Shown: positions 26,092-30,785 of the stretch, piece by piece
How the letters are laid out: every line of letters begins with the position of its first letter
Position numbering within the stretch: position 1 is the stretch's first letter
Origin: Thermomicrobiales bacterium
GTDB taxonomy: Bacteria > Chloroflexota > Chloroflexia > Thermomicrobiales > UBA6265
Direction: 5' to 3'
Assembly (NCBI GenBank): GCA_019637585.1
Contig: JAHBVL010000001.1
Location: forward strand, 124,001 to 188,000
Length of the DNA: 64,000 nt
Made by a program: the position numbers and the translations under genes
The notes under the pieces: generated by a model
The model's database searches: none
What the model saw: only the letters and a program-made list of their open reading frames with translations
Told to the model about the DNA's origin: nothing

Positions 26092-28728
26092 TCAGTCTGC
26101 CGTGGGAGGGCAGTCTCTTGCTTCCAACGTGGCGTGAGCGGCGGCGAGCCGGGCGACGGGTACCCGGAAGGGAGAGCAACTGACGTAATCCAGCCCAGCG
26201 TGGTGACAGAAGTGAATCGAAGCCGGGTCGCCGCCGTGCTCGCCGCAGACGCCGACTGACAGATCCGGTTTGGTCAGCCTGCCTCGTTCGGTTGCCAGCT
26301 GGACGAGCTGGCCGACGCCCTCCTGATCGAGCGTCTGGAAGGGATCGTCTGCCAGGACACCTTGTTCCACATAGCTGGGAAGGAAGCGCGCGGCATCGTC
26401 GCGGCTGAGACCGAAGGTCATCTGGGTCAGGTCGTTGGTTCCCAGACTGAAGAAATCCGCGAAACCGGCGATCTTGTCCGCAACCAGCGCCGCGCGCGGC
26501 ACTTCGATCATGGTGCCGATCTGGAACGGCACCGTGCGCCCCGCCCGGGAGAAGACGTCTGTGGCGACTTCTTCGATCAAGCGCCGCTGCTCCCTCAGTT
26601 CTTCCGGTGTCGACACGAGCGGAATCATGATCTCCGGATGAACCTCGACCCCTTCGCTGCTCACCGTCAACGACGCCGCGAAAATCGCGCGCGCCTGCAT
26701 GCGGGTGACATCCGGGAAGGTCATACCGAGCCGAACACCGCGCAATCCGAGCATCGGATTCACTTCGCGCATCGATTCCACGATATGGGCAATAGCGCTG
26801 ACATCGATACCCATTTCCACAGCCAGCTCGTGCACTTCGGCTTCAGTGGTGGGCAGAAATTCGTGCAGTGGTGGGTCGAGCAAGCGGATCGTGACCGGCC
26901 GGCTAGCCATCGCCCGGAAGATCCCGGCGAAGTCGGCAGTCTGGAAAACCTGCAGATCGGCAAGCGCCCGGATTCGCTCGGGATCGGACTGGGCCAAAAT
27001 CATGCGGCGCATCGCCTCGATGCGACCCGGCGCGAAAAACATATGCTCCGTCCGGCAAAGGCCGATCCCCTCGGCGCCGAATTCCACCGCCCGAGCGGCA
27101 TCGGCCGGGGTATCGGCATTTGTGCGGACACCGAGCTGCCGAATGCCATCTGCCCATGAAAGCAGGACGCGGGCTTCATCGCCCAAACCGGGTTTGGTCA
27201 TCGCCGCTTCGCCGCGAATCACCTGGCCGGTTGTCCCGTCGATCGTGATGATGTCTCCTTCGAAAACGACTTCGTCACCGGCCCAGAACCGTCCGTGGCG
27301 GGCATCGACCTCGATGCCGCTGCATCCGGTGACCGCCGGCAATCCCATGCCCCGGGCAACAACCGCCGCATGCGACGTCATCCCGCCGCGAGCGGTGAGG
27401 ATCCCCTTCGATCTCTCCATACCAGGAAAATCCTCGGCGGCGGTTTCGTTGCGAACCAGGATGACGGCTTCCCCCGCTTCGCCCATTTCTTTGGCTCGCT
27501 CGGGCGTGAACACCGCTTTGCCGCTAGCGGCGCCTGGACTGGCCGGCATACCTTTGGCCAGGACCAGGACCTCCTGGGTGCGGTCGATCTGCGGATGAAG
27601 GAGCGACTCGATATCTTCCGGTCTGACCCGCCGGACACCGGTTTCGCGGGAAATGAGTCCCTCGCTGGCCATTTCGACGGCGATCCGGACCGCTGCAGAG
27701 GCGGTCCGTTTGCCGGTGCGCGTTTGCAGCATCCAGAGTTTGCCGCGCTCGACGGTGAATTCGAGATCTTGCATGTCGGTGAAGTGCTGCTCGAGCTTGC
27801 GGGCGACGTCGAGCAACTCGGCGTGCGCCTGGGAGAAGAGGGAGTTGTCGATCATCTCATCGGTCGAGAGCGGCGTGCGAACGCCGGAAACAACATCCTC
27901 GCCCTGGGCATTGATCATGAATTCGCCGAAGAGACCGGCTGCGCCGCTGTTTGGGTTGCGGGTGAAGGCGACACCCGACGCACATCCGGCGCCAATGTTG
28001 CCGAAAACCATGGCCTGGATATTGACGGCCGTGCCCGCATCTTCCGGAAAGTCGTGCGAACGGCGGTAGGCGATCGCTCGGGGAGAGTCCCACGACCGAA
28101 AAACGGCCATCACCGCGCCGCGTAGCTGGTCCCACGGGTCGTGAGGAAAATGGGCGCCGTGCTCTTCGATCGTTGACTTGAAGCGTTCGGCGACCTCCTT
28201 CAGCTGCTCTGCGTCGAGTTCGTGATCGTGACTGACGCCGGCATCCTTGCGCGCTTTGGTCAGGATCTCCTCGAAGAGCTCGCCTTCGACTTCCAGAACG
28301 ACCCGGCCATACATCTGGATCAACCGGCGGTAGGAGTCCCAGGCGAAACGCTCGCCAGAGAGTGCGGCGAGACCTTCTACGGTGAAGTCGTCCAGACCGA
28401 CGTTGAGAATCGTGTCCATCATGCCGGGCATCGAGTCGCGGGCGCCCGATCGGACCGAAAGGAGGAGCGGGCAGTGGGGATTGCCAAACTCCCGATCGAG
28501 CGTCTGTTCGACCGATGTCAGCGCGGCGGTGGTTTCCTCCCAGAGCGAGTCAGGGACCTGATTGCCGTTCGCCCTCAGCGCCCGGAAGGCATCGGTCGTG
28601 ATGGTGAAACCGGGAGGAACGGGCAGTCCCAGCCGGGTCATCTCAGCGAGGTTCGCCCCCTTGCCACCGAGCAGATCGCGCTCGGAAGCGCTCCCTTCGC
28701 TGAAGTGCCGTACCCATTGCATGGTCAT
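26092..28728 (-). CDS. ppdK: Pyruvate, phosphate dikinase (PPDK)
   Basis: An 878-residue full-length enzyme that interconverts pyruvate + ATP + Pi and PEP + AMP + PPi. Order: ATP-grasp domain (GGKGANLAEMTRLGLPVPPGF, then SVRSGARDSMPGMMDTILNVGLD), swivelling phosphohistidine domain (TARGGMTSHAAVVARGMGLP, catalytic His in TSHAA), and PEP-binding barrel (GIGLCRTEHMFF near 560; GVCGEHGGDPASIHFCHHAGLDYVSCSPFRVPVARLAAA at the end). All key motifs are intact. ATG 28728 has GGAAGGA; ATG 28722 is an alternative. A terminator and small leader frame precede it. Confidence 0.95.
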   Translation of the reverse strand: MTMQWVRHFSEGSASERDLLGGKGANLAEMTRLGLPVPPGFTITTDAFRALRANGNQVPDSLWEETTAALTSVEQTLDREFGNPHCPLLLSVRSGARDSMPGMMDTILNVGLDDFTVEGLAALSGERFAWDSYRRLIQMYGRVVLEVEGELFEEILTKARKDAGVSHDHELDAEQLKEVAERFKSTIEEHGAHFPHDPWDQLRGAVMAVFRSWDSPRAIAYRRSHDFPEDAGTAVNIQAMVFGNIGAGCASGVAFTRNPNSGAAGLFGEFMINAQGEDVVSGVRTPLSTDEMIDNSLFSQAHAELLDVARKLEQHFTDMQDLEFTVERGKLWMLQTRTGKRTASAAVRIAVEMASEGLISRETGVRRVRPEDIESLLHPQIDRTQEVLVLAKGMPASPGAASGKAVFTPERAKEMGEAGEAVILVRNETAAEDFPGMERSKGILTARGGMTSHAAVVARGMGLPAVTGCSGIEVDARHGRFWAGDEVVFEGDIITIDGTTGQVIRGEAAMTKPGLGDEARVLLSWADGIRQLGVRTNADTPADAARAVEFGAEGIGLCRTEHMFFAPGRIEAMRRMILAQSDPERIRALADLQVFQTADFAGIFRAMASRPVTIRLLDPPLHEFLPTTEAEVHELAVEMGIDVSAIAHIVESMREVNPMLGLRGVRLGMTFPDVTRMQARAIFAASLTVSSEGVEVHPEIMIPLVSTPEELREQRRLIEEVATDVFSRAGRTVPFQIGTMIEVPRAALVADKIAGFADFFSLGTNDLTQMTFGLSRDDAARFLPSYVEQGVLADDPFQTLDQEGVGQLVQLATERGRLTKPDLSVGVCGEHGGDPASIHFCHHAGLDYVSCSPFRVPVARLAAAHATLEARDCPPTAD

Positions 28729-28762
28729 TCGTCCTTCCCCCGGTCGATTGGTTTCGCGCAAC

Positions 28763-28786
28763 AAAAAACCGGGGCATCGTCCCCGG
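28763..28786 (-). terminator. Intrinsic terminator upstream of ppdK (attenuator candidate)
   Basis: On the minus strand CCGGGG (28786-28781), loop ACGATG, CCCCGG (28774-28769) and six T (28768-28763) form a classic intrinsic terminator. It ends 34 bases before the ppdK start and is downstream of the promoter at 28970-28998. Because it lies between that promoter and ppdK, it would abort transcription unless read through, the arrangement of an attenuator. Confidence 0.75.
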
Positions 28787-28828
28787 GTCCCTGGCGATTC
28801 TGGAGTTCGTTCTGTGCGGTGAGTCAGG

Positions 28829-28963
28829 TCAATGGCTCAGAGGCACCTCCAGCATCGCCGGGCCGGCGTAGTAGGAGGTAAAGACGTAGGAGTAGCTCTC
28901 AGCAGAAAGCCCGCTGCCAAAACCGTGCATGGAAATAGTTGGGGCGGCAGCGCGACGTCTCAT
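28829..28963 (-). CDS. Putative leaderless Tyr-rich leader peptide of ppdK
   Basis: A 44-codon frame starting ATG 28963 and ending TGA 28829. It opens with MRRRAAAPTI and has the core SYSYVFTSYY (five Tyr/Phe in ten codons) near residues 23-32, then AGPAMLEVPLSH. The ATG coincides with the predicted transcription start (six bases after the TAGAAT -10 box), so no SD is needed. It is followed, 43 bases after the stop, by the terminator in front of ppdK. Leaderless short frames rich in one amino-acid class before a terminator are typical of ribosome-mediated attenuation. Codon enrichment points to aromatic amino acids, whose synthesis uses PEP. No homologue is known to me. Confidence 0.55.
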   Translation of the reverse strand: MRRRAAAPTISMHGFGSGLSAESYSYVFTSYYAGPAMLEVPLSH

Positions 28964-28969
28964 GGCGGG

Positions 28970-28998
28970 ATTCTAGCAATGGGCGTCCTGGCTGTCAA
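28970..28998 (-). promoter_or_regulatory. Sigma70-type promoter of the ppdK leader
   Basis: Minus strand TTGACA (28998-28993), 17-base spacer, TAGAAT (28975-28970): consensus -35 and one mismatch in -10. +1 falls on the A of ATG 28963. A perfect inverted repeat GAGAGTT-tcctg-AACTCTC lies at 29019-29037, about 56-74 bases upstream of +1, and may be a regulator site shared with the divergent gene at 29114. Confidence 0.7.
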
Positions 28999-29113: not shown

Positions 29114-30004
29114 ATGGCCAAACGGACCGCCGACGCCATCGTCGAACGATTGCGGTCGCTCGCCGATGCACCAGACGACCAGCGGGCGCTGGCGGTTGAG
29201 CTGGTCGCGTCTGACCGGCGACCATCGGTCTTTCTGCCAGCACTCACCATCCTCGATCTCCCCATGGACGAGCAGGAGCGCGGCGCCATGTTGTCGCTCT
29301 ATCACTGGCTCGACGAAGCGGGAGTCACGCGAGACCTGAATGCCAGCACCCGCATTCGGATTCTCAAATCCCTGCGATCGGCTGAGTTGCACGCACCCCT
29401 CGATCTGCTGTTGCGCGCTGTGCGCACGGTCGAACGCGCGCCCGGCGGGCTCGACGAAGCTGCCGGACTCCGCGCCGCCGCGCTGATCTCGCTCCTCGAC
29501 GTCGAGCAGGAGCTGGCCGGCTATCACGCCGCTCGCTTGCTGACCGATGCTGAAACGTCACCATTCTCAGGCGAACCAGCGGTCACTGCCGTCACGGTGC
29601 TGGCCACGCTCGACCAGCGGCCGCCCCTCTACGCCTACACGATGCAAACGCCTCAGGGGCAGACAGAAGTACTCGCCGAGATTCTGAACGCGATGGTGGA
29701 AGCACCCGATCCGATCGTGCATGATGTCGTCCAGCATTTGCTCATATTTGACGACGAGCCCGTGGTGGCGTCTGTCTATGAACTGGTGTTGAAACGGGAC
29801 GACGCCACGTGGACCGCCATGCTGACATCCTTTCTGGCCAGCGAGCAACGTCCTCATCTGCTGCGATACGTCGCCACCACGATCGCGGCGGAGCGCCGCC
29901 CCTGGCAGATCGAGTTGTTGCGTCAGGCCGCGGCAACGGAACAACCGCAGAAACGGCGGGCGCTCCTAACCGACGCGCTGGACCTGCTTGAGCCTGCGAG
30001 ATGA
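29114..30004 (+). CDS. Hypothetical all-helical repeat protein
   Basis: A 296-residue soluble protein, no signal peptide or membrane segment. It looks like alpha-solenoid (HEAT/ARM-like) from end to end: repeated amphipathic helix pairs such as TRIRILKSLRSAELHAPLDLLLRAVRTV, AAALISLLDVEQELAGYHAARLL and HLLRYVATTIAAERRPWQIELLRQAA. No catalytic motif is seen. Divergent from the ppdK leader promoter with about 110 bases between the two likely start points. I do not recognise the family. Confidence 0.65.
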   Translation: MAKRTADAIVERLRSLADAPDDQRALAVELVASDRRPSVFLPALTILDLPMDEQERGAMLSLYHWLDEAGVTRDLNASTRIRILKSLRSAELHAPLDLLLRAVRTVERAPGGLDEAAGLRAAALISLLDVEQELAGYHAARLLTDAETSPFSGEPAVTAVTVLATLDQRPPLYAYTMQTPQGQTEVLAEILNAMVEAPDPIVHDVVQHLLIFDDEPVVASVYELVLKRDDATWTAMLTSFLASEQRPHLLRYVATTIAAERRPWQIELLRQAAATEQPQKRRALLTDALDLLEPAR

Positions 30005-30072: not shown

Positions 30073-30345
30073 GTGGTCGAAATCGTTACGAAGCTTAGCA
30101 GCAAGAATCAGGTCACCCTTCCCGCCGAGGCGAGGAAGGCACTTGGTGTTGGCGCCCACGATCGGGTTGCCTTTGTTGTAGAAGAGGACGGCTCCGTCCA
30201 GGTACGTCGACCGAAGTACACCATTCGGTCGCTCGTTGGATCGTTCCCCGCTATGCCCGGGGCATCAGACGACCTGCGCCACGAGATTTACGAGGCGACG
30301 GAGGAGGAGATTAATCGTCGTCATCCAGAATGGCGCAAGCAGTGA
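30073..30345 (+). CDS. AbrB/MazE/SpoVT-type antitoxin (VapB)
   Basis: A 90-residue antitoxin. The swapped-hairpin DNA-binding domain is clear: VTKLSSKNQVTLPAEARKALGVGAHDRVAFVVEEDGSVQVRR. The C-terminal tail (RHEIYEATEEEINRRHPEWRK) would bind the toxin. GTG start with AGGAGGT five to six bases upstream. Its end overlaps the toxin gene by 16 bases. Confidence 0.87.
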   Translation: MVEIVTKLSSKNQVTLPAEARKALGVGAHDRVAFVVEEDGSVQVRRPKYTIRSLVGSFPAMPGASDDLRHEIYEATEEEINRRHPEWRKQ

Positions 30346-30785
30346 TTCTGCTCGATGCGAACGTCATCATTCGCCTTCTCACGGTTGCCGACAATCCCGC
30401 GAACCTGCGCATGCAATCAATTGCGCTGGAAGTGCTCGAATCGGTTGAGGCAGGTGACGTCGACGTCTTGATCTCAGATGTTGTGCTTGCGGAGGTCGCA
30501 TTCATGATGACTTCACGAAAGCACTTCGCCACGGATGTCGCCGATTTCGTCGAGAAACTCATGGCTATCGTCAGCCTGCGAAACGTGCGGGTGGACGACC
30601 GTCAGACGCTCTTCCGAGCGCTGGCGCTTTGGTCAGAGCGGCCCAACCTCGGCTTTATCGATGCCATGACGGCCGCACAGGCACAACGACTCAACGTCCA
30701 GCTGCTTACATTCGACTCCGATTTCGACGGAATCGAAGGCATCCAACGCTGGGAGCCACCTGAAGAGACGACATCGAACCAATAG
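30330..30785 (+). CDS. VapC-type PIN-domain toxin
   Basis: A 151-residue PIN RNase. Acidic ligands: D in ILLDANVIIRLL, E in VVLAEVAFMM, D in LGFIDAMTAAQAQ and D in LLTFDSDFDGI. Overlaps the AbrB-type antitoxin gene, the standard VapBC organisation. A 22-base-or-longer gap downstream to the convergent aminotransferase gene shows no strong terminator. Confidence 0.88.
   Translation: MAQAVILLDANVIIRLLTVADNPANLRMQSIALEVLESVEAGDVDVLISDVVLAEVAFMMTSRKHFATDVADFVEKLMAIVSLRNVRVDDRQTLFRALALWSERPNLGFIDAMTAAQAQRLNVQLLTFDSDFDGIEGIQRWEPPEETTSNQ

Follow-up and report, generated by a model that had tools for sequence, protein, structure and literature searches.

The gene for pyruvate phosphate dikinase (ppdK) in the window, by which we mean the whole 64,000-nucleotide stretch analyzed here, is likely to be controlled by ribosome-mediated attenuation through the aromatic codons of a short leader peptide. 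As judged from sequence comparison, the ppdK leader belongs to an attenuator family that precedes DAHP synthase genes in its order and phylum. Across the leaders compared, we find a common layout, an aromatic codon run, a covarying stem (1:2) and terminator, abutment of these two structures, and kinship of the ppdK leader with the DAHP synthase leaders. The first-pass annotation had already read the ppdK leader as an attenuator, and this reading is well supported by comparison, through a covariance model, the conserved layout and covariation. Two points are refined: the codons point to sensing of Phe as well as Tyr, and ppdK shares the element with other genes.

All parts of the element lie on the minus strand. 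A sigma-70-type promoter, TTGACA-17-TAGAAT (28970..28998; TTGACA 28998-28993, TAGAAT 28975-28970), matches at 11 of 12 bases, and six bases separate its -10 from the leader ATG at 28963; promoter and ATG at the predicted +1 are both where the first-pass annotation had placed them. If transcription starts at this ATG, no Shine-Dalgarno (SD) sequence is possible and the leader would be of the leaderless type. The frame of 44 codons, MRRRAAAPTISMHGFGSGLSAESYSYVFTSYYAGPAMLEVPLSH (28829..28963, TGA at 28831-28829), contains the putative regulatory run SYSYVFTSYY with four Tyr codons and one Phe codon (28868..28897). A few bases 3' of the run, the codons for GPAMLE form region 1 of stem 1:2, GGCCCGGCGATGCTGGAG (28847..28864), whose pairs covary and whose partner is region 2, CTCCAGAATCGCCAGGGACC (28786..28805), past the stop codon. 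The CTGGAG/CTCCAG pair singled out earlier is real, but is just part of this longer stem. A terminator stem-loop, CCGGGG-ACGATG-CCCCGG (28769..28786), follows with its T6 tract (28763..28768), starting 42 bases after the leader stop and not 43 as first counted. Base 28786 is both the last of region 2 and the first of the terminator stem, and with optional extension more bases are shared. The previously described frame, hairpin, six T, SD and ppdK ATG are thus all present: an SD-like GGGGAAGGA (28732..28740) stands before ppdK, the proposed regulated gene (26092..28728, 878 aa), whose product scores 1277.6 bits against TIGR01828 (cut-off 843). The ppdK ATG is at 28728, with a second in-frame ATG at 28722.

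On the plus strand beyond the promoter, we note a 296-aa frame divergent from ppdK (29114-30004) that has no Pfam or NCBIfam match, and at 30073-30785 a MazE/AbrB-type antitoxin (PF04014) overlapped downstream by a PIN-domain protein (PF01850), a pair that looks like a VapBC-type toxin-antitoxin by its domains. Elsewhere in the same genome, a short open frame (G000:C1:551698-552576; only 356 aa) encodes another protein that has the N-terminal ATP-binding domain of PPDK.

Scans of a 3-kb stretch with the element put its single parts in perspective. For the promoter, 0.6 sites are expected in shuffled sequences, making it weak evidence alone, and the terminator scan found 2 sites against 2.3 expected in shuffles, with no enrichment. 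Since promoter-like and terminator-like sites alone do not go beyond chance, the whole case rests on comparison. Rfam models, T-box and riboswitch families included, gave no match in the window or in representative loci.

Among the 32 genomes that represent the family, four yielded a ppdK gene. The closest relative, in genome G002, is 70% identical over the N-terminal part and is preceded by a leaderless-type frame encoding MATRQGVNRQLDLSVMVGRPATAPYAYAFYYFYAYQAMLEVRSSGE, then TCCAG..TCGC, then a strong hairpin. The aromatic run of this leader is YAYAFYYFYAY, and its region 2 matches that of the window leader. The first-pass annotation had proposed comparing ppdK upstream regions among relatives; in this comparison, as it had expected, the Tyr/Phe codons and the pairing segments of the G002 leader, with GCGATGCTGGAGGTG, are identical or kept, but the N-terminal halves differ. 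Conservation of frame and terminator therefore extends to G002 but is narrow at ppdK, the element standing before two of the four same-family genes, while a covariance model finds no match in 95 other ppdK loci (80 distant and 15 of the order or family). Inspection by eye likewise shows no such element upstream of ppdK in G016, in G004 or elsewhere in the order. The ppdK leaders were found in two genera only, and PPDK searches of GTDB and of viral contigs brought up nothing nearer than relatives at about 48-56% identity.

A DNA search with the window leader led to terminators of the same type before DAHP synthase genes. Almost throughout the order, a leader frame, stem and terminator (one such frame reads ...DWYYFYFTPPALLVGQSVLIR) precede one of a genome's two DAHP synthase paralogues, and the second paralogues sampled in the order have no leader, except in G011. 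In the window's genome (G000) the leader MRNLDHLTSLKSPEVAASGANWWFYFYGNPPALLAGREVLTR precedes a DAHP synthase gene (PF00793), and the upstream stretch examined for the second DAHP synthase gene (L090, G000:C31:20380-20950) has no aromatic leader frame. This DAHP synthase leader contains Trp, Phe and Tyr, whereas the run in both ppdK leaders consists of Tyr and Phe as its only aromatic residues, so ppdK should ignore Trp.

When the window frame is aligned with the G002 ppdK leader and the DAHP synthase leaders, the aromatic run falls at the equivalent place in nearly all of them. Leader length and N-terminal sequence are unconserved, and only the run and the paired codons are kept. This pattern, together with a stem that spans the stop codon, makes it very improbable that the frame is a small protein with its own function behind a terminator that merely sets a constant ppdK level, even though a good promoter and start would suit such a protein.

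Membership of the ppdK leader in this family is further supported by a covariance model, R2, built from 36 DAHP synthase leaders with the ppdK leaders left out. In the window's whole genome R2 finds two significant sites at E-values that are rough owing to a short calibration: the DAHP synthase leader (E 3.0e-19), which belonged to the training set, and the ppdK leader (E 2.0e-9), which did not. G002 again has two significant sites and no others, one in front of DAHP synthase (8.2e-20) and one in front of ppdK (3.6e-5), and in the window plus locus L032 the ppdK leader is found at E 3.4e-11. A chance arrangement, with a random frame before a constitutive terminator, might be read from the lack of terminator enrichment over shuffles and from the two same-family ppdK genes that have no element, but is scarcely conceivable given a genome-wide match to a ppdK-naive model and the recurrence of the element upstream of the G002 ppdK gene. 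Judged by eye, the leaders of ppdK are most like the second DAHP synthase leader of G011 (...SPAMLVG). The ppdK attenuator was probably recruited from the DAHP synthase leader family, the likeness being due to duplication or convergence.

The leaderless start suggested for the window leader is also predicted across the family. In 38 of the 45 leaders of the order that have a start, an in-frame start codon follows 3-9 bases behind a -35/-10 pair in which 8 or more of 12 bases match, as against 3.4% of all ATGs in the same loci, with the promoter score maximized over in-frame starts, which favours the leaders somewhat. Leader peptides without a ribosome binding site are known from ilvBNC of C. 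glutamicum (Morbach et al. 2000, as cited in PMC4046766).

Covarying stems, which had been suggested as a further check, are found in the DAHP synthase leaders: the layout of leader, stem and terminator recurs upstream of these genes with compensatory changes. Region 1, the codons just 3' of the aromatic run, pairs with region 2. Over 40 leaders, 90.7% of the cells of stem 1:2 and the terminator are paired and nine pairs are changed on both sides; the covariation score is 0.239, compared with 0.115 for shuffled and at most 0.072 for slid controls. Without the ppdK rows, 92.9% of cells are paired with eight double-change pairs, and the score is 0.255 (0.120 shuffled, at most 0.091 slid). Kinship among the sequences inflates such scores, and the slid controls retain this relatedness. 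The terminator stem has 99-100% of its cells paired, with compensatory changes present. In all 48 leaders region 2 reaches, at its 3' end, up to or into the terminator, counting terminator pairing with the first U residues.

The first stem pair, mostly at a Pro-codon wobble base, is C-G in 14, U-A in 11 and G-C in 9 of 36 leaders, and synonymous Pro/Ala codon changes in region 1 are compensated in region 2, in distant families too. For example, CCTCCAGCATG/CATGCTGGAG becomes CCCCGGCATG/CATGCCGGGG in a distant family, with PPA unchanged. These changes bear on whether (F/Y)xPPA could be a nascent-chain arrest signal, so that free aromatic amino acids or a Pro-Pro pause would be sensed and not charged tRNA. 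In distant-family leaders xPPA does follow the aromatic run, sometimes immediately before the stop, but the ppdK leaders have no xPPA (AGPAM, AYQAM) and the PPA codons double as a pairing segment. As their wobble changes are compensated in region 2, RNA pairing explains much of the conservation, and we regard arrest as improbable.

Across the phylum, 82 of 301 sampled genomes have model matches at E 0.1 or better, the weak ones being unreliable. We read the downstream gene for 65 matched sites: apart from ppdK, matches with E < 1e-6 have DAHP synthase downstream wherever the sequence is long enough, two strong matches being so close to a contig end that a search for DAHP synthase gives no verdict there. 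Matches are essentially absent from the other families sampled in the order's class.

Two observations on single loci and families may be added. At L286:1500-1851 (minus strand; G153:C11) a match with E 1.2e-6 stands before a gene that reads as tyrosyl-tRNA synthetase (tyrS), where the candidate leader frame, MNRNQIIAKSKIAGHGCAYIGPARVALPLS, carries only one Tyr codon, immediately ahead of the stem. In family f27 (L144, L146, L149, L151, L153, L158 and others) GCTCAGC occurs near the leader start (ATGCTCAGC) and is complementary to GCTGAGC 3' of the stop codon, which may form an extra hairpin over the start. In f27 leaders such as L144 and L155 the frame closes with ...FYYWFSPPA, which puts the stop codon within region 1. 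The window's order is different in this respect, so the switch geometry must differ.

From the arrangement in the window we infer leaderless translation, stalling, read-through and a direction of response. Transcription would begin at the leader AUG, and a ribosome would load on the leaderless end and translate the peptide. With ample charged Tyr/Phe-tRNA it would reach the stop codon, located between regions 1 and 2, and hold them apart; the full terminator (28786-28763) would then form and ppdK would be off. With charged Tyr/Phe-tRNA scarce, the ribosome would stall in the aromatic run, upstream of region 1, and region 1 could pair with region 2. As region 2 meets or overlaps, at its 3' end, the base of the terminator and its U-tract extension, the terminator would be weakened and ppdK would be transcribed.

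We modelled these states with partition functions and a crude ribosome mask on the leaders, an equilibrium treatment. With the ribosome at the stop, the terminator's U-tract extension averages 0.86; with the ribosome stalled it averages 0.40 at the first and 0.82 at the last aromatic codon. A ribosome held at the last of these codons would sit over the beginning of region 1. In the window ppdK leader the extension drops from 0.84 with the ribosome at the stop to 0.02 when it is stalled, and in the G002 ppdK leader it is unchanged (0.88 vs 0.84). The core terminator, with means of 0.975, 0.92 and 0.97 at the stop, first and last aromatic codon, is predicted in all states, and the overlap switch is thus modest at equilibrium. 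The modelled states are consistent with stem 1:2 serving as an antiterminator like that of ilvBNC (see below), without amounting to proof.

In an alternative scheme for the same attenuator, stem 1:2 would resemble the E. coli trp hairpin and serve in pausing or protection, with another structure as antiterminator. This is rather unlikely, even though in most leaders stem 1:2 can coexist with the core terminator at equilibrium and region 1 starts a few bases past the last aromatic codon, close enough for a stalled ribosome to mask it. Against it, neither region 2 nor the 5' arm of the terminator showed a conserved complement, and by eye regions 2 and 3 are both purine-rich and alike in many leaders, which would make them poor pairing partners. 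A classical 2:3 antiterminator, looked for by eye in the leaders, was not found and was dropped in view of this likeness, as was a 2:4 pairing that would itself end at the U-tract. On balance we lean slightly towards stem 1:2 as the antiterminator.

In E. coli, the trp, pheA and pheST leaders encode a peptide with the regulating codons and have an intrinsic terminator before the first gene. The window element shares this plan but differs from the 1:2/2:3/3:4 scheme and SD-led leader in that no 2:3 pairing was found, and its target gene is another. The closest known system by function is aroR-aroF of C. glutamicum, in which an aromatic leader peptide precedes a DAHP synthase gene and transcription goes up when the ribosome stalls at aromatic codons (Neshat et al. 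2014, described in PMC11802643 and PMC4046766). It belongs to an actinobacterium, its run is Phe-Tyr-Phe and its target is not ppdK; the likeness drawn here is one of function. In mechanism the nearest comparison is ilvBNC of C. glutamicum, where the leader mRNA is leaderless, the antiterminator lies 3' of the control codons and overlaps the terminator base, and a boundary trinucleotide common to both hairpins at that base decides the state with fast switching (PMC11857589). The candidate antiterminator stem 1:2 in the window shares bases with the terminator base in the same manner, whereas ilvBNC responds to branched-chain amino acids and has a third (anti-antiterminator) hairpin (PMC11857589). 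Attenuators of actinobacterial trp, trpS, leuS and ilvB were likewise predicted by comparing leader peptides outside Proteobacteria, for other amino acids and genes; the accessible part of that study names neither DAHP synthase nor ppdK (PMC1262725). The main text of PMC2965389 mentions neither Chloroflexi nor aroF. Our literature search found no report of PPDK attenuation, which is weak evidence as subscription papers were mostly not covered, and, with the same poor coverage, no reported DAHP synthase attenuator in the phylum. New here are ppdK as an attenuator target and the breadth of the DAHP synthase attenuator across the phylum.

PPDK makes phosphoenolpyruvate (PEP), a substrate of DAHP synthase. 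As PEP feeds DAHP synthase, we propose that ppdK and DAHP synthase would both be raised when aromatic amino acids are short. G000 and G002 each also have pyruvate kinase and ATP-type PEP carboxykinase; because of the latter we no longer regard PPDK as the sole source of PEP, and the presence of both enzymes suggests that PPDK may be an extra, demand-driven PEP supply.

Tentatively, and with somewhat less than even confidence, these elements may be read together as a phylum-scale leaderless aromatic attenuator, in which a stop-spanning antiterminator abuts the terminator base without sequestering the 5' arm, and which would have extended from DAHP synthase to PPDK and, in a single genome, to tyrS, placing PEP formation under direct control by the supply of aromatic aminoacyl-tRNA. 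Naturally varying leaders of the family number in the dozens, their changes are compensatory and the leaderless start is conserved, so that an abutting antiterminator and leaderless translation are directly testable. The family would also provide a widespread DAHP synthase attenuator for a phylum whose amino acid regulation is little described and, if the reading is true, would tie PPDK, an enzyme of central metabolism, and with it PEP supply to the supply of aromatic aminoacyl-tRNA.
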